IMG/VR virus record: IMGVR_UViG_3300044800_000123
Coordinates: 1-22,620 of that record
DNA: 22,620 nt
Strand: one strand, 5' to 3'
Source: a virus
Part shown: positions 4,550 through 13,080 of the stretch, piece after piece
How positions within the stretch are numbered: the first letter of the stretch is position 1
How the letters are laid out: each line of letters opens with the position of its first letter
Made by a program: the position numbers and the translations under genes
The notes under the pieces: model-generated
What the model was told of the DNA's origin: nothing
The model's input: the letters and a program-made list of their open reading frames with translations, nothing else
The model's database searches: none

Positions 4550-5017
4550 TTACACGGCCGCGATATAGGCGCCGACATCGATCGGCATCCAACGAACCTG
4601 CCACTTGACGCTCCCGGTGTTCGTCGCGCCGAGTATTAGGTCCAGGTATCCCGGTCGAAGGACGACCGGGTTCGGTTGGCCGCCGACGCCACCCGCAAGC
4701 GCCATAACCAGCGCGGTCGCGGCGAGCCCGGAGATCGTGAACAACGACCCGACTTCTTTGCCGGTGATGTCGGACGTGGCGCACAGATCGACGGCGGTTC
4801 CAACATCCGGCGTGGCCGTAAGTTTCGCGGTGCACGCCTGGGTCTGGATGATCGTCGTCACTTCTCCAAGGATCAATCCAAGGGCCACCCGACCGACATA
4901 TGTTCGGAACAGATGGATCGTGCCACCCGCGACGATGGAGGCGGTGGCACGTTCTACCGGCATTCCAAAACGCATTAGGGTCGCGAGGTCGAGATCTGGG
5001 TTTTGCAGCTGAGGCAT
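4550..5017 (-). CDS. Virion structural protein, unknown function
   Basis: A 155-residue protein with start at 5017, preceded by GGAAAGGAAAAG. The sequence is hydrophobic and glycine/alanine-rich, with beta-like stretches (VALGLILGEVTTIIQTQA; ALVMALAGGVGGQPNP) and a C-terminus resembling a jelly-roll strand pair (YLDLILGATNTGSVKWQV). No family is recognised. It sits in the capsid-proximal group of three small genes and is most likely a head-associated structural protein. Confidence 0.5.
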   Translation of the reverse strand: MPQLQNPDLDLATLMRFGMPVERATASIVAGGTIHLFRTYVGRVALGLILGEVTTIIQTQACTAKLTATPDVGTAVDLCATSDITGKEVGSLFTISGLAATALVMALAGGVGGQPNPVVLRPGYLDLILGATNTGSVKWQVRWMPIDVGAYIAAV

Positions 5018-5034
5018 TTTTCACTTTTCCTTTC

Positions 5035-5066
5035 CGGGCGGCCCTCCCTCTCGAGAGAGCCGCCCG
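5035..5066 (-). other. Intergenic hairpin with nested palindrome
   Basis: CGGGCGGC and GCCGCCCG form an 8-bp stem enclosing the palindrome CTCTCGAGAG, in the gap between the 5101-5586 gene and the 4550-5017 gene. No U-tract follows on the minus-strand transcript. Like the hairpins at 4044 and 5601 it lies immediately before a ribosome binding site. The role is unknown. Confidence 0.4.
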
Positions 5067-5100
5067 TACATTCGTTTGCGTCGTCCTGCGATCGCTGCGC

Positions 5101-5586
5101 TTAGTCCACGACTGCGGTCGAAGGTGTGGCGCTCGGATAGGCCGCCTGGAGGTAGAACTGCGCTTCGGTGATGTTTGCGGCGTTGGAGGCGCCGGTGATC
5201 ACGCTCAGGCAGTCGAACCCGTTGGCGACGTCGAGCGACGCCGGATCGATCTGGAACACGATCTGCTTGATTTTTACGCCGGCATCGGTGGTATAGGACA
5301 CCGCGGCGGTGCGGCGCACGAAGGCGTCGCTGGCTGCACAGTCCAGGTCGGACCAGATCGGCACGACGTTGGTGATGGCCTTATGGCCGGTGTTCACGAT
5401 GGCGGTCGCCTGTTCCACGGTGATCGCGATCGTGGCGGCGTTCCCCTGGGTGATGTGGAGAACGATCCAGGCCATCACGGTGTCTTTCAACGTCACGACG
5501 GCGCTGGTGCGCCCGCCCGCATCGGCCGCGGGAGCGAGAGCGTTGACGATCTTGCAGTGTTCCGGAAGACAAAACGGCATTGGCAT
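5101..5586 (-). CDS. Head-associated structural protein, unknown function
   Basis: A 161-residue protein directly downstream of the major capsid gene. The start MPMPFCLPEH at 5586 is set by AAGGAG 8 nt upstream; the in-frame extension to 5634 lacks an SD. The pattern is beta-rich, with IVLHITQGNAATIAITVEQA, a conserved-looking Trp-Ser-Asp segment, then IVFQIDPASLDVANGFDCLS and a final strand pair. I have seen proteins of this shape beside capsid genes in other prophages but do not know a function. A head decoration or fibre protein is a reasonable guess. Confidence 0.55.
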   Translation of the reverse strand: MPMPFCLPEHCKIVNALAPAADAGGRTSAVVTLKDTVMAWIVLHITQGNAATIAITVEQATAIVNTGHKAITNVVPIWSDLDCAASDAFVRRTAAVSYTTDAGVKIKQIVFQIDPASLDVANGFDCLSVITGASNAANITEAQFYLQAAYPSATPSTAVVD

Positions 5587-5600
5587 TTTCTTTTCTCCTT

Positions 5601-5628
5601 GGGGCTGGCCCCGATCGAGGCCAACCCC
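5601..5628 (-). other. Intergenic hairpin between capsid and next gene
   Basis: GGGGCTGGCC and GGCCAACCCC pair over ten positions with one mismatch around an 8-nt loop. The hairpin lies after the capsid stop (5659 on the minus strand) and before the SD of the 5101-5586 gene. No U-tract follows, so complete termination is unlikely. It could tune relative expression of capsid and downstream genes. Confidence 0.4.
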
Positions 5629-5658
5629 ACTCAAAAACGGAAAGGAATTACCTGCGAA

Positions 5659-7032
5659 TTACGCACGCACGGCCAGGGTCACGAACGGGCTGAGCGTATT
5701 GGCTCCCTTGGCCGGGGTGAGGGCCGACTTCCACAGCGACCGGCCCGTTGTCCGGAAGGTGAACCGGAAACAGGACTCGTCGGTCAGGAAGGCGACGTGG
5801 ATCGAGAGATCGGATTGGACGTCTCCCTTGTCCGAGATGGCGTATTCGCCGAAGTTGGCCAAGGTGATGTCGCCCTGGGTGCCGCAGGTTTCGGCGGGCT
5901 CGATGATGACCACCGGCCGACCCTTCAGGCGCCCGTAGGGAACGTCCGCAAGACCACCGGGCGGCAGATAAACCGGAACCCCGCCCAGACCGACGGTCAG
6001 GGAGAGCGCGTCGAGTTGCGGCTCGACGTCCTGGTTGATCAACCACACGGCGTTCGCCCGTCCCGGCGCCCAGCAGCGCGACCACATTTTGCTGATGTTC
6101 GGCTGCGTGACGGTGGCCGCCACCTGACCGGCTTCTTTGGCCACCACGACCAGGGAGGCGGATTTCTGGATGCCTTCCGGGCAGCCCACTCCGGTGCCGG
6201 TGAAGATGGCCTCGTTGAGCATGTAGGCCATCTCATCGGCGGCCGCCTGACTGATCAGGCTGTTCATGGCCGCGATATCGGAGAGCTCTTCGTCGGTGGC
6301 GTAGTGCACGATCATCATCTTGTTCAGCCGCAGGTCCACCTCGCCGAAGGTCGGCTTTGTTGCCGTCGCGGCGACGCTGGGTGCCACCCAGTAACCCTGC
6401 ATCCCGCCCCAGCGCGAACCGGTGACGCGGGAGGTCTCGTCGACGACCTTGATGTGGATCCCGTTGGAGTTGGGGCCCACGGAGAACTTCCGGCACCGGC
6501 TCGCCAGGTCGGAAGCGCCGTATCCCTTCGAGTACAGCGCGTACGCGAAGGACGCTTCGAGCAACGCCCCGCCTTCGGAGAAGACTTCCTCGTTGCTCCC
6601 GGACGCCTTCACTTTGTACAGGCGCTCGTCGTCCCCCTGGCCGGTATAGTGGTTCTTGATGGCCATGAGCTGCTCGCCCATGCAGGAGAAGATCGGCTTC
6701 GGGAGTTTCGGGGCGGATGGAATGCGCCGAGATTTCACCGACGCGGCGCCTTCTCCACCGGAAGCCGGCTGTTCCTCCTCTTCGTCCCCTTCCTCCGGAC
6801 CGTTCTTGAAGGCCGAAATGCGCGTGGCGGGGGCTTTCAGTTTCTCTTCGGCCGCCTCGTTCCGCGCATGATCATCCGCCTGCGCCATGAGACGATCGCA
6901 TTCGTCCTGGTGCACGCGGAACTGCTTGGCTTCGGCCTCCGTCAGGGTTGTCTTCCCTTCGGTGATGGCCTTCGCCTTTTTCAGCTCCTCAGCCGCAAGG
7001 TTGCGGAGCTCCATGCTTTTTTTGCTCGCCAT
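5659..7032 (-). CDS. Major capsid protein, HK97 fold
   Basis: A 457-residue protein directly after the prohead protease, with SD GAGG before the ATG at 7032. The first roughly 115 residues are charged and helical (MASKKSMELRNLAAEELKKA, later an EEGDEEEEQ patch), which fits a delta/scaffolding domain removed by the protease. The remainder has the HK97-type layout: glycine-rich E-loop region, a long helix around TDEELSDIAAMNSLISQAAA, LINQDVEPQLDAL, and PGGLADVPYGRLKGRPVV, the common P-domain segment of phage capsids. It forms the icosahedral shell. The assignment is strong on pattern and synteny; the cleavage site is not determined. Confidence 0.85.
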   Translation of the reverse strand: MASKKSMELRNLAAEELKKAKAITEGKTTLTEAEAKQFRVHQDECDRLMAQADDHARNEAAEEKLKAPATRISAFKNGPEEGDEEEEQPASGGEGAASVKSRRIPSAPKLPKPIFSCMGEQLMAIKNHYTGQGDDERLYKVKASGSNEEVFSEGGALLEASFAYALYSKGYGASDLASRCRKFSVGPNSNGIHIKVVDETSRVTGSRWGGMQGYWVAPSVAATATKPTFGEVDLRLNKMMIVHYATDEELSDIAAMNSLISQAAADEMAYMLNEAIFTGTGVGCPEGIQKSASLVVVAKEAGQVAATVTQPNISKMWSRCWAPGRANAVWLINQDVEPQLDALSLTVGLGGVPVYLPPGGLADVPYGRLKGRPVVIIEPAETCGTQGDITLANFGEYAISDKGDVQSDLSIHVAFLTDESCFRFTFRTTGRSLWKSALTPAKGANTLSPFVTLAVRA

Positions 7033-7035
7033 ATC

Positions 7036-8136
7036 TCACCTCGTCTTTAACAGGATTTCGCGCTCTCGGATCTCGATTTGGTATCGCAGACTCTCGGTGA
7101 GTGCCATGCCGCAATCGTCCTCGGCCGACGGCTCGGCGGAGAGCAGGATCTCCTGGAGCTCCTTGCGAGCGCGATCCAAGCGCTCCAGGTCTTTCGCTTG
7201 CAGACGCCCGGGCGAGAATTCGCCGGGCACCGCAATCTCCCGCGTCAGGAACGCGAGGGAGATCAATTTGAAGTCCGGCGGCTCTTTCTCCCACGCCGGA
7301 TAGTGCTTTGCCAGGTGGTCGTAGGTCGCCTTCCGTTCCCCTTCCGGAATATCGACGCCGCCCATGCCACCCATCAGCACGCTCATCGCCGATCGGACGC
7401 CGTTCCACACGGCCGGTCCGACGCCGGATTTCTTCGGCAGGTGATGCGGAAGTTTCAGGTCTTCAAATTTCTCGGGCGGATTGTTCGCCGACCAGGCATA
7501 GTGCGCCATGATCCGGCGCCGCTCCGCCTCGTCGAGTTCTTCCCACTGCTTGTCGGTGAAATCGCCCAAGCCCGGCTTCTTCCAGGCGAGCCCCTCGTCG
7601 GCCGCGCCATGATCGGCAAACGGTACCGCGGCCTTTGCCCCGCGCGTCGCCGGGTTGGCGCCCCAGTTCACGTCCGAGAAGTCGTAGCATTTGAGCTCGA
7701 CCAGGTTCCGGATCCGGCCGCCGGTGACGACCTCGTCCTTGCTGCGAATTGCGTCGTAGCCGAAGGACATCTCGGTGATGGCTTTCTTGATGATCCCCTC
7801 GAGGATCTGATCGCTGCGGGAGTTCTGCAGGTACTCGCGCGTTTCTTCCACTGCACCGGTGATCTCCGGGAATTGCGAGATCATTTCCTTCGGCAGATCT
7901 TCCTTCCCAACCTCGCGGGCCGACAGGATCGCCGCAGTCGGCGGCTCCCACATCTGGTGCATCCAGAAATGCTTGATCTGGCCGTGCGGCAGCCGCTCCT
8001 TGAGTGTCTTCAGGAAGGAGCCCGCCATCGTCCGGTCGTTGGTCTCGTCCACGTTGCCCATGACGGCCGGATAGCCGACCACCACCCGCCCTTCGATGGT
8101 CTTCACAAACGATGGAATGGTTTTCTCTTCAGGCAT
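7036..8136 (-). CDS. Prohead maturation protease, HK97 gp4 family (S78)
   Basis: A 366-residue protein. The N-terminal ~190 residues match the HK97 prohead protease pattern: GYPAVMGNVDETNDRTMAGS, then FWMHQMWEPPTA containing the probable catalytic His60, then TEMSFGYDA with the probable nucleophile Ser124. The enzyme cleaves scaffold domains from the capsid protein after prohead assembly. The protein is longer than a minimal protease. Residues ~200-310 form an extra domain (KFEDLKLPHH, NGVRSAM, YDHLAKHYPAW) that I have seen fused to such proteases but cannot name. GGAGGG precedes the ATG and the gene overlaps the upstream small gene by 8 nt. The capsid gene follows after a few nucleotides. 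Confidence 0.82.
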   Translation of the reverse strand: MPEEKTIPSFVKTIEGRVVVGYPAVMGNVDETNDRTMAGSFLKTLKERLPHGQIKHFWMHQMWEPPTAAILSAREVGKEDLPKEMISQFPEITGAVEETREYLQNSRSDQILEGIIKKAITEMSFGYDAIRSKDEVVTGGRIRNLVELKCYDFSDVNWGANPATRGAKAAVPFADHGAADEGLAWKKPGLGDFTDKQWEELDEAERRRIMAHYAWSANNPPEKFEDLKLPHHLPKKSGVGPAVWNGVRSAMSVLMGGMGGVDIPEGERKATYDHLAKHYPAWEKEPPDFKLISLAFLTREIAVPGEFSPGRLQAKDLERLDRARKELQEILLSAEPSAEDDCGMALTESLRYQIEIREREILLKTR

Positions 8137-8396: not shown

Positions 8397-11360
8397 TCAC
8401 ACCACGGGTCCGAATGTGCGCACGCAATTGTGTGTTATGATGTTGTTCGCGATGTACCATCCCTGTTTGGTCTCGAGGTTATAGACATGTCCAGAAAACT
8501 TCCGCCGCTCAATATGAACGACATGCGTAGGAGATACCAGCGAGGCGATACGCTTCATGAGATCGCCATGAGTACCGGCTATAGCAAAACCACGCTCAAG
8601 CGGCGTTTCCAAAAGGTCAACTTTGAATTGCGCTCGCCCGGTCGAAAGATTCCCGGGGTCAACTTCCACAAACTCTTCAAGCAATACCTTTCCGGAGATT
8701 CCTCGGACCGGATCGCCGAGAGAGTTGGCTTGAATGGGGCTTCGTTGAGGCAAATGTGGCGCAAACGCGGCTTCAAATTGCGGAACGCCAGCGATGCCCA
8801 CCGATTGCAAATGCTCCGCCTCGGCAAAATCGGCAGGCAGAGGATCACCACCGCGGCCCACGACGCCGTCAGGGGTAGGAAGCAAACCCTTCAGCACCGA
8901 GAGAAGATTGCTATCTGCAAGGAGATCAGACAATCCCATACCAGCAGAATCGACCGATCCTTTGCCGCCATGCTTTCCCAACGCGGTCTCTTCCCCGTTC
9001 TGGCCAAGTCCATTGGAAAATACAATATCGATGTCGCCATTGCTCCCGTCGCCGTGGAAATCTTCGGAGGATCCTGGCACAACAGTGGATACCATGCGTC
9101 CAGATTCCAGCGCCGCACGCACGACATCCTCAACTCGGGATGGCACCTCGTGATAATCTGGGTCGAGGGCAGTCGCTACCCCCTCACTCGAATTGCAGCG
9201 GAATACGCAATCTCCTTCTTGAAGGAACTGGGCCGCAAGCCAACCTCGGTCTGTCAATATCGGGTGATTCGGGGTACAGGTGAGGAGATCATTCGCGGAT
9301 GTGCGAAGGACAATTACTTCCCCGTCAAACCGCCTCAAATATCCCGCCGTCATATTCGGTGCACACACGACAGCATCCCCGGGTAAGCAACTCGGGTGTT
9401 CCAATGGGTTCGCGCGCGCCTGCTCGATCGTCCAGACCACATCGCCGTTGGCATACACCTTGCATTCATCGCAGGAGTTGACGCTGTCTCCGTCCAGGAC
9501 GGCCACCTCGTTTACCCCGTTCTGCTCGTAGCGGCCGAGGGCGGCGTCGTTTTGAACGGTGCCGAGCTCGGTTCGTGAGATACATTCGGATCGGTGGGCG
9601 TAAGCCTCTTCTACCAGGTCCTTGATCCCGCGCAGCCCGAGCTCGGCATCACCGTTGATCATCTGGGGGATCGTCCATCCCCGCTTCGCGCCCTCTTCGA
9701 GCGCGTCGTTCACTAGCTTCAGTGTCTCTTCCCCTACTCCTTCGATCCGTCGGCCCAGGGCCTCCAGCGCCGCCTTGACGAACGGCAGGCTCTCGTCGAA
9801 TTCACCTTCGATCAGGACCGACTGATTGATCACCGACCACGATTCCGACAGCAGCCGTACGGCCCACTTCTTCACCAGCGCCTGCAGTTTGGCCAGATCC
9901 TCCGGACTGATCAGATCGCCCGGTGCCGCCTTGCGGGTTTTGCTGGCCAACAACCGTGAGACGACGGTCGATGAAAGCTGCTTGAAGTAGGCGTCGATCT
10001 CCGGCGCCGCCTTCTCGCTCACCAGGATCCGCAGCCGGCGGAGGGCAATCCCGAAATTCCGCGCCGCTTTCAACGCACGCGGGCCCATTCGCTTTCGCGC
10101 TGCCTTCCCGGTCTTGGCCCCGAAAGGCACCTCGACCATCAGCGGACCGCGCAGGTAGATGTTTCCGTTTGGATCCGGATCGTATCCGCAGGCTTCCCGG
10201 AACTCGTTCACCAGCATTCCGCCGGAAGTCAGACCGCGCAGGGCGAAATCGCGCTTCGCGGCCATGCGGGACTGCAGGGCGAGCACGTTACTGGTGTCGA
10301 ACTGCACGACGATCTTGCGCCGACCGCCGGTCTGAAATTCTCCGACCAGCCCCTGGGTGATCTCCCGCGCATCCTTCTTCCAGATCGGCACGAGCTTGCG
10401 CTCGGTGAAATGCGTCTCCATCCCGTCGACGTTGTTGTAGGTCATCTGCTCGAGCCCGACGTACAAGCCCGCTACGACGGCCGGCACGCCCGAGACCGAT
10501 GCAATGCGCGCCTCCGGGATGCGACGGAGGGCGTTGAATTCCATGTCCTTCAGATTGAGGGCGATCGCCTCGAGATCCGCGCCGCCCTCGAGGAGGGCGA
10601 TCTTCCCGCGATTGTCGCCGCCCTGTGCCTGATGGTATTCCTGCCGGATGAGTTCTTTCTCTTCCGGCGTCAACTTCTTCGTTTCCGGCGGTATCTTCAG
10701 CTTCATCCGCGGAACCGCGTCGTTCTTCAGCAGGGCGTAGAGGTATGCGGTCGCCTCGTTGTCGGTGCACACCTCGCGCAATACCGCCGCCAGCGGGCCC
10801 AGGCCCATCCACGGTTTGATCGGATCGATCATCCACTTCAGGTGGATGACGTCTTCCTTCACGATCGGAACCGGGGAGCCGGTCAAATAATCGAACTCGA
10901 AATAATCGACGAGTTTCTCGCCGCCGGCGATGGGTCGCATCTGCGCGTCGCTCAGCGGCCACAGTTCCACCACGCGCTTGCCGGAGGATCGCACCTTGTA
11001 CAGGTAGCAGGATCCGGAGATGTACTTGTAGGTCATGATGAATTCGAGCAGCTCGCTGCCGCTCATGTCTTCGTTCGGGTTGTCGAGGAGCTCCGTCAGG
11101 GGGTGATCGTAGAGCGGATCCGCGCCGTCCTCCGTGATCTCGTATGCCAGCAGGGACGGCTCGACGTATCCCTCAATCAGTGCGGATCCGCAGGCGAAGA
11201 CGGCGCTGTTGCCCTTCAGACCTTCCATCGCCAGCGTCCGGAACGTCGGAGCGGGAAACGCCTTGCGCTCCCAGGGAACGGTGAGCACGATGCCCATCCG
11301 GTTGGCCACGGCCTCCGCCGCCTTGAGCGCACTGCCTCGAATTCGATCCAGAAGACTCAC
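8397..11360 (-). CDS. Portal protein fused to MuF-like head protein, interrupted by an intein
   Basis: An open frame of 987 residues. The GTG start at 11360 (SLLDRIRGSALKAAEAV follows) has AGGAG 7 nt upstream and lies 10 nt after the terminase stop; an in-frame ATG at 11450 would overlap terL by 80 nt. Residues ~1-430 are a HK97-type portal (NPNEDMSGSELLEFIMTYKY, EDVIHLKWMIDP, VSGVPAVVAGLYVG), the ring through which DNA is packaged. Residues ~470-657 plus the last nine are a MuF/SPP1 gp7-like head protein ending in the HPxC motif (SCDECKVYANGDVVW, then HPS...CVRTFGP). Residues 658-978 are an intein, so the spliced protein would be about 666 residues. Portal and MuF are usually separate genes; here one frame covers both with no visible break. 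Confidence 0.85.
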   Translation of the reverse strand: MSLLDRIRGSALKAAEAVANRMGIVLTVPWERKAFPAPTFRTLAMEGLKGNSAVFACGSALIEGYVEPSLLAYEITEDGADPLYDHPLTELLDNPNEDMSGSELLEFIMTYKYISGSCYLYKVRSSGKRVVELWPLSDAQMRPIAGGEKLVDYFEFDYLTGSPVPIVKEDVIHLKWMIDPIKPWMGLGPLAAVLREVCTDNEATAYLYALLKNDAVPRMKLKIPPETKKLTPEEKELIRQEYHQAQGGDNRGKIALLEGGADLEAIALNLKDMEFNALRRIPEARIASVSGVPAVVAGLYVGLEQMTYNNVDGMETHFTERKLVPIWKKDAREITQGLVGEFQTGGRRKIVVQFDTSNVLALQSRMAAKRDFALRGLTSGGMLVNEFREACGYDPDPNGNIYLRGPLMVEVPFGAKTGKAARKRMGPRALKAARNFGIALRRLRILVSEKAAPEIDAYFKQLSSTVVSRLLASKTRKAAPGDLISPEDLAKLQALVKKWAVRLLSESWSVINQSVLIEGEFDESLPFVKAALEALGRRIEGVGEETLKLVNDALEEGAKRGWTIPQMINGDAELGLRGIKDLVEEAYAHRSECISRTELGTVQNDAALGRYEQNGVNEVAVLDGDSVNSCDECKVYANGDVVWTIEQARANPLEHPSCLPGDAVVCAPNMTAGYLRRFDGEVIVLRTSANDLLTCTPNHPILTDRGWLAAQFLQEGDCVFRCNSSEGVATALDPDYHEVPSRVEDVVRAALESGRMVSTVVPGSSEDFHGDGSNGDIDIVFSNGLGQNGEETALGKHGGKGSVDSAGMGLSDLLADSNLLSVLKGLLPTPDGVVGRGGDPLPADFAEAEHLQSVGIAGVPQFEAAFAPHLPQRSPIQANSLGDPVRGISGKVLLEEFVEVDPGNLSTGRAQFKVDLLETPLERGFAIAGTHGDLMKRIASLVSPTHVVHIERRKFSGHVYNLETKQGWYIANNIITHNCVRTFGPVV
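8433..8441 (+). promoter_or_regulatory. Candidate extended -10 promoter for the antisense endonuclease gene
   Basis: TGTTATGAT is an extended -10 (TGn plus TATGAT) on the plus strand, placing a start of transcription near 8448 and a leader of about 40 nt before the ATG at 8487. No convincing -35 is present. The element lies opposite the intein C-terminal codons, so it would move with the intein. This is a weak sequence match only. Confidence 0.25.
8487..9386 (+). CDS. Antisense-encoded Vsr/EDxHD-like homing endonuclease nested in the intein
   Basis: The only convincing plus-strand gene, 299 residues. Two helix-turn-helix units come first: residues ~12-45 (RRYQRGDTLHEIAMSTGYSK) and ~61-97 (YLSGDSSDRIAERVGLNGAS), each followed by an R/K-rich segment, typical of DNA-contacting modules of homing enzymes. 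A nuclease domain follows at ~165-265. GKYNIDVAIAPVAVEIFGGS, then WHNSGYHASR, GWHLVIIWVEGSRYPLT and a final QYRVIRGTGE resemble the Vsr/EDxHD fold, with Asp182, Glu191, His198 and His203 as candidate active-site residues. Start at 8487 has GAGG 8 nt upstream. The frame is open further upstream, but that part lies outside the intein and has no domain. The stop TAA lies opposite the second intein codon. I infer that it drives intein homing. Confidence 0.85.
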   Translation: MSRKLPPLNMNDMRRRYQRGDTLHEIAMSTGYSKTTLKRRFQKVNFELRSPGRKIPGVNFHKLFKQYLSGDSSDRIAERVGLNGASLRQMWRKRGFKLRNASDAHRLQMLRLGKIGRQRITTAAHDAVRGRKQTLQHREKIAICKEIRQSHTSRIDRSFAAMLSQRGLFPVLAKSIGKYNIDVAIAPVAVEIFGGSWHNSGYHASRFQRRTHDILNSGWHLVIIWVEGSRYPLTRIAAEYAISFLKELGRKPTSVCQYRVIRGTGEEIIRGCAKDNYFPVKPPQISRRHIRCTHDSIPG

Positions 11361-11370
11361 GCTTGCACTC

Positions 11371-13080
11371 CTATACCCATGAGAAGCTCGGCCTGGTCCG
11401 CTTCGGCACCAACGTGCCGGCGATCCAGCAATAGTTCTCTGCATGCGCAAAGTGGTCGGGCCCGCTCTCCACGTACCGTGCCACCTGCTGCCCGCCCGGC
11501 CCCTCTTCCAGCACCCGGATCGGCGCCTTCATCTGGGGCCGGTAATCCTTTAGGTTGTCGATGTCGCCAGGCAATGTGTTTACCTGGCCGAAGAAGGCGG
11601 CGAAGGTCTCGTCCATCGTGCGCGTCCGGTCAATCGTCACCGTGCCCTCTCCGTAATCCGTCTCGGCCGCATCCTCTTTCTTGATGCCCACCTTCTGCTG
11701 GGTGTAATAGGCCAGGAAGACGATCCCCTGGAATTGCGCCTGCAGCTCGCGGGCCTTGGTCGTCTCCGGAAGCGCGTCGATCACCGCGACCTCGACGTGG
11801 TACTGTTTGATCAGCCGGCCGAGTTCGTCCCAGTCCACCATTCCGGCGAAGCGTTGCGGACGTTCGCCCGTCTCGCCCTGGACCGGTCCGCGGATCACCA
11901 CGTGCAGCATCTTTCCGACATCGCATCCCAGACTGGTCGACTCGCCCTTCACGGCGCCTTGCGCGTACTCCCGCTTGCAGGAGTCGAGAACCTCGTCCGT
12001 CAGCCCGCCGCCCTTTGGGGTATAAGGCTCACCGAGATCCTGGTTGTAGGCCTCTCGGCGTTTCGTCTCGTCCACCGTCTGCAGCGCCTGCACCACGTCG
12101 AGCATCGCGCGCGCCGGCGAGAAAAGTTTGGTCAGGTGGAATCCGGCGATCGCGCTTTCCGGATTCGTCGGGATCCACTTGCCGGGTCCCAACCGATCGA
12201 GCTCCTTACCGCACTTCCGGCAGGCCGCCCAGGCTCGACCCTCGTCCTGCCCGTGCCAGCGAACGGGTCTACCAAGCGCATCCGATTCCTGCACCACCTG
12301 CCCGATCGTCATCGGCTGCCATTCCTTGCAGGATCCGCAACGCACATTCCACTCGCGCTGATCGCTCTTGCTCCATTCGGCGTGGATCCCGTGTCCGCTA
12401 TAGGAGGGCGTGCTGATGAGCCGCTTCTCCGCGATCGCCGAGTGGCCCAGCCGCTTCTCCGCGATCGAGGGCGCCCGCGGGTCCATCTCGTCGAGTTCGT
12501 CCAGGATCAGGACGTCCGCGTCGATCGACTTCAACTGCGAAGCCGTCCCGTCCGGATCCACCTTGGCTCCGCGCAGGTAGAGGAACCGGTCTCCCACGCG
12601 CTTGAGCGTCACCCGGTCGGCTCCGCTCAGTCCGCCGCCGGCCGCTCCGGAAACCACGATCTGCTGCAGGTACTCCGAGGCCTCCACCGCCGGCCCGATC
12701 CGCGCCGCCGAGAAATCGCTGACGTGCTTGTCGGTCGGGAAGACATACAGCGGTGTAGCGTTGCGTTCGTCAGCTGCATGCAGGGCGTAGGAGATCCCGT
12801 ACTCGCTCGCTCCCATCTGCCCGGCCTTGTAGACCACCACGTTTTGCGCTATGCAGTTGTAAAGGTCCTGAAGATATGCGTGCCGCACCAGGTCGAATGG
12901 CCGGCCTGGAATGAGCCAGACTCTATTTCTTGCGGTCCACTCCAGTAGACCGAGCGACGTCCTCGTCCGTTGCCGGCGGGGGAAGAGCGTCGGGCCGACC
13001 GCCGCCGGGATCCCCAGCGCCTCCGGCGTGAGCACGAAGTGCCGCGACCGTTTCAGGGGGAATGACGTTCGAGAGCTCAT
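11371..13080 (-). CDS. terL: Terminase large subunit, GpA family
   Basis: A 569-residue packaging ATPase/nuclease. A Walker A-like segment VVYKAGQMGASE is at ~82-93 (the loose form used by GpA terminases), Walker B ADVLILDELDEMD at ~188-200, followed by KRLISTPSYSGHG, the usual coupling motif. A zinc-ribbon-like insert has Cys248, Cys251, Cys287 and Cys290. Candidate nuclease acidic residues lie in LGCDVGKMLHVVI and VAVIDALPETTK. It translocates DNA into the prohead through the portal. The start is uncertain: the ATG at 13080 overlaps terS by 158 nt, yet the conserved-looking segment EWTARNRVWLIPGRPF is encoded across the terS stop, so some overlap is unavoidable. A 10-residue near-duplication (IAEKRL...IAEKRL) follows Walker B. 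Confidence 0.85.
   Translation of the reverse strand: MSSRTSFPLKRSRHFVLTPEALGIPAAVGPTLFPRRQRTRTSLGLLEWTARNRVWLIPGRPFDLVRHAYLQDLYNCIAQNVVVYKAGQMGASEYGISYALHAADERNATPLYVFPTDKHVSDFSAARIGPAVEASEYLQQIVVSGAAGGGLSGADRVTLKRVGDRFLYLRGAKVDPDGTASQLKSIDADVLILDELDEMDPRAPSIAEKRLGHSAIAEKRLISTPSYSGHGIHAEWSKSDQREWNVRCGSCKEWQPMTIGQVVQESDALGRPVRWHGQDEGRAWAACRKCGKELDRLGPGKWIPTNPESAIAGFHLTKLFSPARAMLDVVQALQTVDETKRREAYNQDLGEPYTPKGGGLTDEVLDSCKREYAQGAVKGESTSLGCDVGKMLHVVIRGPVQGETGERPQRFAGMVDWDELGRLIKQYHVEVAVIDALPETTKARELQAQFQGIVFLAYYTQQKVGIKKEDAAETDYGEGTVTIDRTRTMDETFAAFFGQVNTLPGDIDNLKDYRPQMKAPIRVLEEGPGGQQVARYVESGPDHFAHAENYCWIAGTLVPKRTRPSFSWV

Follow-up and report, generated by a model that had tools for sequence, protein, structure and literature searches.

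Homing endonuclease genes of the EDxHD/Vsr-like type are usually free-standing, reside in introns, or lie between the halves of split inteins. Classical mobile inteins are defined by an endonuclease domain in frame with the splicing domain (PMC3943268). Antisense His-Cys endonuclease genes are known from nuclear group I introns of Didymium, where both expression and cleavage have been demonstrated (PMC9548176), and a 2025 description of the ShiLan type in phage methylases concerns an HNH gene that lies out of frame over an open insertion, with no splicing element (PMC11855218). Here, we analyze an intein in the portal-MuF fusion gene of the IMG/VR virus contig IMGVR_UViG_3300044800_000123 (the window, comprising the whole contig of 22,620 bases), in which the strand opposite the intein carries a nuclease gene. 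We consider this very probably to be a mobile intein whose homing endonuclease is encoded by the complementary strand of that DNA.

The element shares with canonical mobile inteins of the PI-SceI and PI-PfuI type a Hint domain placed in an essential conserved motif, an endonuclease within the element, a sporadic presence, and intact empty sites. Unlike in those inteins, the endonuclease is a separate gene on the opposite strand, with its own start, Shine-Dalgarno (SD) sequence, and stop, and a disordered linker replaces the in-frame domain. With the EDxHD/Vsr-like enzymes, such as I-Bth0305I of a group I intron and the enzymes of split-intein "fractured genes," it has in common a nuclease domain joined to extra DNA-binding units, but in the present case the gene runs antisense inside an intein that is not split. 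The Didymium introns likewise carry an endonuclease gene antisense to a splicing element, although they are spliced as RNA, their opposite strand need not encode protein, the nuclease belongs to another family, and the setting is eukaryotic ribosomal DNA (PMC9548176). As in the ShiLan type, a hidden endonuclease overlaps a frame that is kept open with the host gene and spreads among phages; the ShiLan enzyme is of the HNH family, whereas a conserved Hint domain is present here (PMC11855218).

In the window, the intein is inserted between LEHPS and CVRTFGPVV, which corresponds to the conserved HPxC motif of MuF. Both Hint halves and both exteins form a single continuous frame, and a split or fractured intein was rejected because the intein and its exteins occupy one open reading frame (ORF). 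The two coding frames run codon on codon, with intein residue 302-j opposite nuclease residue j, such that the nuclease ATG faces His301 in block F (GHVYNLE) of the intein. An earlier note on this DNA, made from the sequence without database searches, had placed an intein on the minus strand and a nuclease on the plus strand, with the nuclease stop opposite intein codon 2. Its borders are exact to the base, and the position of the TAA was confirmed in the sequence (Table 1).

Several lines of evidence identify the minus-strand product as an intein. The window copy keeps C1, the block B sequence TPNH (residues 39 to 42, including T39 and H42), the terminal pair H320-N321, and Cys+1, and C1, T39, H42, and N321 are invariant in 66/66 aligned inteins. 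A match to PF14890 at 1e-6 lies below the curated cut-off of that family, while the profile matches among PDB sequences are to inteins. The structure model adopts a Hint fold, with a Z-score of 12.5 to the Mtu RecA intein. Its predicted local distance difference test (pLDDT) values exceed 90 in the Hint halves, and almost all those of the centre (residues 127 to 271) fall below 50. No endonuclease family was matched in the sense frame, the centre of which is predicted to be disordered. A disordered centre between modelled Hint halves suggests that the sense strand provides a splicing domain and a flexible spacer, and that the antisense strand uses the spacer for an enzyme. Judging from its retained residues, the window intein is likely to self-splice.

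The antisense product consists of a first helix-turn-helix (HTH) unit at residues ~10 to 43, a second at ~60 to 93, linker helices, and a Vsr/I-Bth0305I-type domain at ~151 to 272. AlphaFold2, run with 88 sequences, predicts the protein with a mean pLDDT of 91.8. The best matches among solved structures are Vsr (Z-score 10.6; root mean square deviation 2.4 over 114 residues) and the I-Bth0305I catalytic domain (Z-score 8.8; 3.0 over 95 residues), and the sequence profile reaches I-Bth0305I (3r3p; 4e-5) and the DUF559-like 3hrl (2e-6) by hmmsearch. A single-protein search of PDB sequences with P0001 alone returned chance matches only, so that profile and fold were required. With these, the Vsr/EDxHD-like similarity that had been proposed for the plus-strand frame is detectable both in sequence and in predicted fold. 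Residues Y179, N180, D182, and E191 are invariant in 88/88 nucleases, and H198 is present in 80/88. Helix residue 156 is Glu in 85/88 and Asp in the other 3, one of which is the window copy (8952-8954). Residue 156, D182, E191, and H198 are candidate positions of the E-D-x-H-D catalytic signature, and no later invariant Asp was found in the alignment. The tandem HTH units also match HTH families of transposases, resolvases, and regulators. One apparent intein motif, FHGDG (residues 111 to 115, with F, H, G, and D each kept in 57 to 64 of 66 sequences), is the mirror of the nuclease sequence V-A-V-E.

Selection on the two strands was compared in 16 independent pairs of relatives. In the intein core, comprising 2698 codons, intein codon positions 1, 2, and 3 differ at.391,.149, and.252. 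Intein position 1, corresponding to position 3 of the nuclease codon, is thus the freest. In the intein parts outside the overlap, the corresponding values of.097,.048, and.295 show the usual order; those of.217,.075, and.224 in the overlap of the nuclease with Hint-N indicate constraint from both frames. The positional flip in the core is seen in 15/16 pairs (P 0.0005). Omega in the core is 0.14 for the nuclease versus 0.48 for the intein, and in the overlap with the Hint halves it is 0.22 and 0.18, respectively. By these computations, neither frame is interrupted, and both are conserved and subject to purifying selection, which is strong on the antisense frame.

The translation signals of the nuclease gene coincide with conserved parts of the intein. 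Among clusters with Leu at intein residue 2, its codon is TTA or CTA in 80/98 versus 126/4205 of the other intein Leu codons (P 1e-94), an excess which implies that the antisense stop is under selection, and the antisense gene ends exactly at intein codon 2 in 74/163. At the other end, 119 clusters have His immediately ahead of block F; its codon is CAT, the antisense ATG, in 102 of these 119 versus 708/1526 elsewhere (P 9e-18). An SD-like 4-mer precedes the start in 129/159 relatives versus 68/648 control antisense ATGs (P 2e-68). Start, SD sequence, and stop are therefore conserved.

Collections of viruses, genomes, and phages were scanned and yielded 248 loci, one of them the window; a 14-row alignment proved too divergent for this purpose, and sub-alignments were used in its place. 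A nuclease antisense within an intein that has both Hint halves in one open frame is found in 236/248 loci, always in the same phase, and these 236 represent 163 clusters at 90% DNA identity. The identity of the relatives' nucleases to that of the window is only ~20 to 44%. Among the 12 exceptions are 6 open inteins, recognized by eye, in which the C-terminal half was missed by the profile, and 4 loci at or near a contig end, in which the N-terminal half is arranged likewise; the remaining two are L020 and L196. Homologous inteins thus keep the antisense frame open, and the arrangement is more widespread than the earlier note had allowed for. With the detectable Vsr/EDxHD-like similarity and the purifying selection on the antisense frame, all of the refuting conditions named in that note and checked here turned out in favor of its reading. 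Cronobacter ES2 and Gordonia Keitabear, found only via the intein, also carry the antisense nuclease.

At L020 (887-1866), the intein frame is broken by a frameshift between the Hint halves, and the nuclease frame is open over most of its length; this is possibly a decaying or mis-assembled copy. The gene at L196 (1342-2307; identical to L248, IMGVR_UViG_2925083658_000003) is free-standing, with the same domains and an extra N-terminal Cys-rich unit. It is convergent with an intein-free MuF gene that retains its HPxC, and overlaps the 3' end of that gene on the opposite strand. A search for further free-standing relatives of L196 returned only the same contig. In a tree of 164 nucleases, a set without L009, it falls among the intein-borne copies with modest support, and it may represent an intermediate stage or a gene that has escaped.

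The same inteins are present in public records as phrog_15127, in "MuF-like / head morphogenesis" proteins of Gordonia, Salmonella, and Klebsiella phages, and as an intein already annotated in Escherichia phage Snoke. None of the regions fetched from named phages has an annotation for the antisense gene. Some Salmonella phage MuF genes (e.g., MT677934, MZ560703, and OQ507916) are labelled "NAD+--asparagine ADP-ribosyltransferase," which looks like a misannotated head protein.

The usual insertion site is HPx|CxC of MuF, with Cys+1 retained. The element is also carried by head proteins of the VG15 family (L002 and L204), and in Virus Rctr197k (L009, 748-1632) it lies in a dCMP deaminase (PF00383, 4e-10) at the PCxxC zinc motif, in a protein that the record calls a head morphogenesis protein. 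At L064 (1066-3033), the insertion is in the ACxxC region of the host protein and not at HPxC, and the nuclease is extended at its C-terminus by a Cys-rich segment. When the extein flanks of Salmonella phage vB_STM-ZS are joined, they match 504 phage records. Among the 60 of these matches listed, most form one uninterrupted piece, i.e., an empty site, with identity of at most 91% among the matches listed, and others are intein-filled. For the window's own phage, a search for relatives of the extein that might show its empty site found none. L096 and L099 share 79% in the nuclease and 30% in the extein, and the rank correlation between nuclease and extein over all pairs is 0.17. Empty sites thus exist, and the history of the element differs from that of its host gene. 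That empty sites occur and that the inteins are far more alike than the proteins that host them point to homing. Both fit the proposal of the earlier note, namely a homing unit with splicing encoded on one strand and the enzyme, in its presumed homing role, on the other.

The coordinates of the locus are collected in Table 1. Elsewhere in the window, genes for a terminase, a protease, the major head protein, a head-tail adaptor, and an endolysin were identified.

Table 1. Features of the intein locus, with positions in the window
Feature	Position	Strand	Basis
Host gene, portal-MuF fusion, with the intein near the C-terminus	8397..11450	-	ORF list; Phage_portal PF04860 1.2e-52; PHROG portal/head morphogenesis matches
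C-extein, CVRTFGPVV plus stop	8397-8426	-	Junction sequence; N-extein codons reach 9390
Intein, 321 residues, C1 at 9387-9389, N321 at 8427-8429	8427..9389	-	Sequence, PF14890, Hint-fold model
Antisense nuclease gene, 299 residues, ATG 8487-8489, TAA 9384-9386	8487..9386	+	ORF, AlphaFold2, Vsr/I-Bth0305I fold and profile match
SD-like GAGG, 8-nt spacer, and ATG, antisense to intein block F (H-V-Y-N-L-E)	8474..8489	+	Sequence
Nuclease stop TAA, which is intein codon 2 (TTA, Leu2) on the minus strand	9384..9386	+	Sequence
Middle of the intein (residues 127-271), predicted to form a disordered linker and selected mainly through the opposite strand	8577..9011	-	pLDDT, omega
Nuclease core motif Y-N-x-D...V-A-V-E-I-F-G-G-x-W-H, residues 179-198	9021..9080	+	Alignments

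An antisense ORF could arise by chance in GC-rich DNA, its nuclease similarity simply following from conservation of the intein. The antisense frame in this phase is broken by TTA, CTA, and TCA only. These codons are rare in the window, and given the codon usage of the contig the frame would be open by chance with P ~0.09. A second antisense ORF of 716 codons (4900-7050, plus strand), mostly over the major head gene, has no family match in PHROG and exemplifies a meaningless long frame in this contig. ORF length was accordingly rejected as evidence for the window taken alone, which bears out the caution of the earlier note that length alone proves nothing. However, synonymous re-coding does not reproduce the similarity. 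Against a profile of 87 relatives from which the window was left out, the real antisense protein scores 336 bits, whereas 1000 synonymous re-codings of the same intein score 113 +/- 16, with a maximum of 167. In loci with less than 50% GC, the antisense frame is still open, although in the extein there 32% of Leu and 23% of Ser residues use one of these codons; the count of zero such codons inside the ORF follows in part from the definition of an ORF. By tblastn, the antisense protein finds 115 phage records, the best at 3e-33, and the best match of the intein itself is weaker, at 1e-25. Adding the confident fold (pLDDT 92) and the substitution pattern flipped in nearly all pairs, a position-specific test that we count as refuting a chance origin, we find such an origin hardly conceivable.

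The antisense product might instead be a real DNA-binding protein that is not, or is no longer, a homing nuclease, such as a regulator or a decayed nuclease; the HTH matches to transposases, resolvases, and regulators would agree with this, as would the replacement of Glu by Asp at residue 156 of the window copy. The full conservation of D182 and E191, the near-constancy of H198, and the low omega argue for a working nuclease, and empty sites with incongruent histories fit active mobility, making this alternative quite improbable. It has also to be asked whether the intein still splices or has become a mere open in-frame spacer, a state that has been suggested for the phage methylase insertion with its out-of-frame HNH gene. 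Its centre is itself little constrained (omega 0.48) and predicted to be disordered, but conservation is strong in those Hint parts that the nuclease does not overlap, the catalytic C1, T39, H42, and N321 never vary, Cys+1 is retained, and the model is a clear Hint fold by its Z-score, all of which leaves the loss of splicing very improbable.

Some observations nevertheless weigh against a mobile intein with its homing enzyme on the opposite strand. A search for a sigma-70-like promoter of the antisense gene gave nothing above shuffles, leaving unexplained the antisense transcription that the nuclease gene presumably undergoes. The loci were fetched mainly by nuclease similarity, and the counts therefore describe the nuclease family and not inteins that lack the nuclease. 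Omega values come from a simple four-class count over single-change codons. With D156 in place of the conserved Glu156, the window copy could be weak or differ in activity. Finally, the frameshifted intein at L020 and the free-standing gene at L196/L248 indicate a link between intein and nuclease that is strong but not absolute.

For a mobile intein of this kind, we envisage the following cycle. The two Hint half-domains and the disordered linker would be translated from the minus strand within the host protein, whereupon the Hint halves would assemble, splice the intein out, and leave portal-MuF with its HPxC motif restored. On the plus strand, the linker and parts of both Hint halves would encode the 299-residue endonuclease, which would bind and cut the intein-free HP-x-C site in a co-infecting phage; site-specific cleavage of the empty HPxC site is the most likely activity of the antisense enzyme. 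Recombination repair would then copy the whole element into the break, completing homing. As the nuclease gene is contained in the splicing element, its target is disrupted wherever the element has inserted, which should keep a carrier safe from the enzyme it encodes.

The earlier note knew of no described example. For inteins this stands in the portions of the literature searched, in which nothing was found that describes an endonuclease gene antisense to an intein and which excluded Dassa 2009 (PMC2677866) and an actinobacteriophage-intein preprint (10.1101/2025.01.02.630785; "non-canonical architecture"). In a wider sense there are precedents, namely endonuclease genes antisense to group I introns and, in phage methylases, out-of-frame ones. 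Because the preprint could cover the Gordonia examples, priority is unsettled. We think it probable that these elements constitute an undescribed and widespread class of mobile inteins, with at least 163 distinct sequences in MuF, VG15, and dCMP deaminase hosts, in which the same base pairs encode the splicing enzyme on one strand and the homing enzyme on the other, and block F and codon 2 double as ribosome-binding site, start, and stop.

Such an arrangement would be a new solution to the problem facing a mobile intein, that of carrying an endonuclease without spoiling splicing. Few computational examples show as clearly how selection can maintain unrelated proteins on the two strands of one DNA over great divergence, and the arrangement may explain conserved "motifs" of phage head proteins, such as FHGDG, that are functionless in their own frame. 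Automatic annotation misses the whole gene family. The element offers a natural two-strand coding system for studying or building genetically entangled elements, and it is carried by isolated phages of E. coli, Salmonella, and Gordonia.

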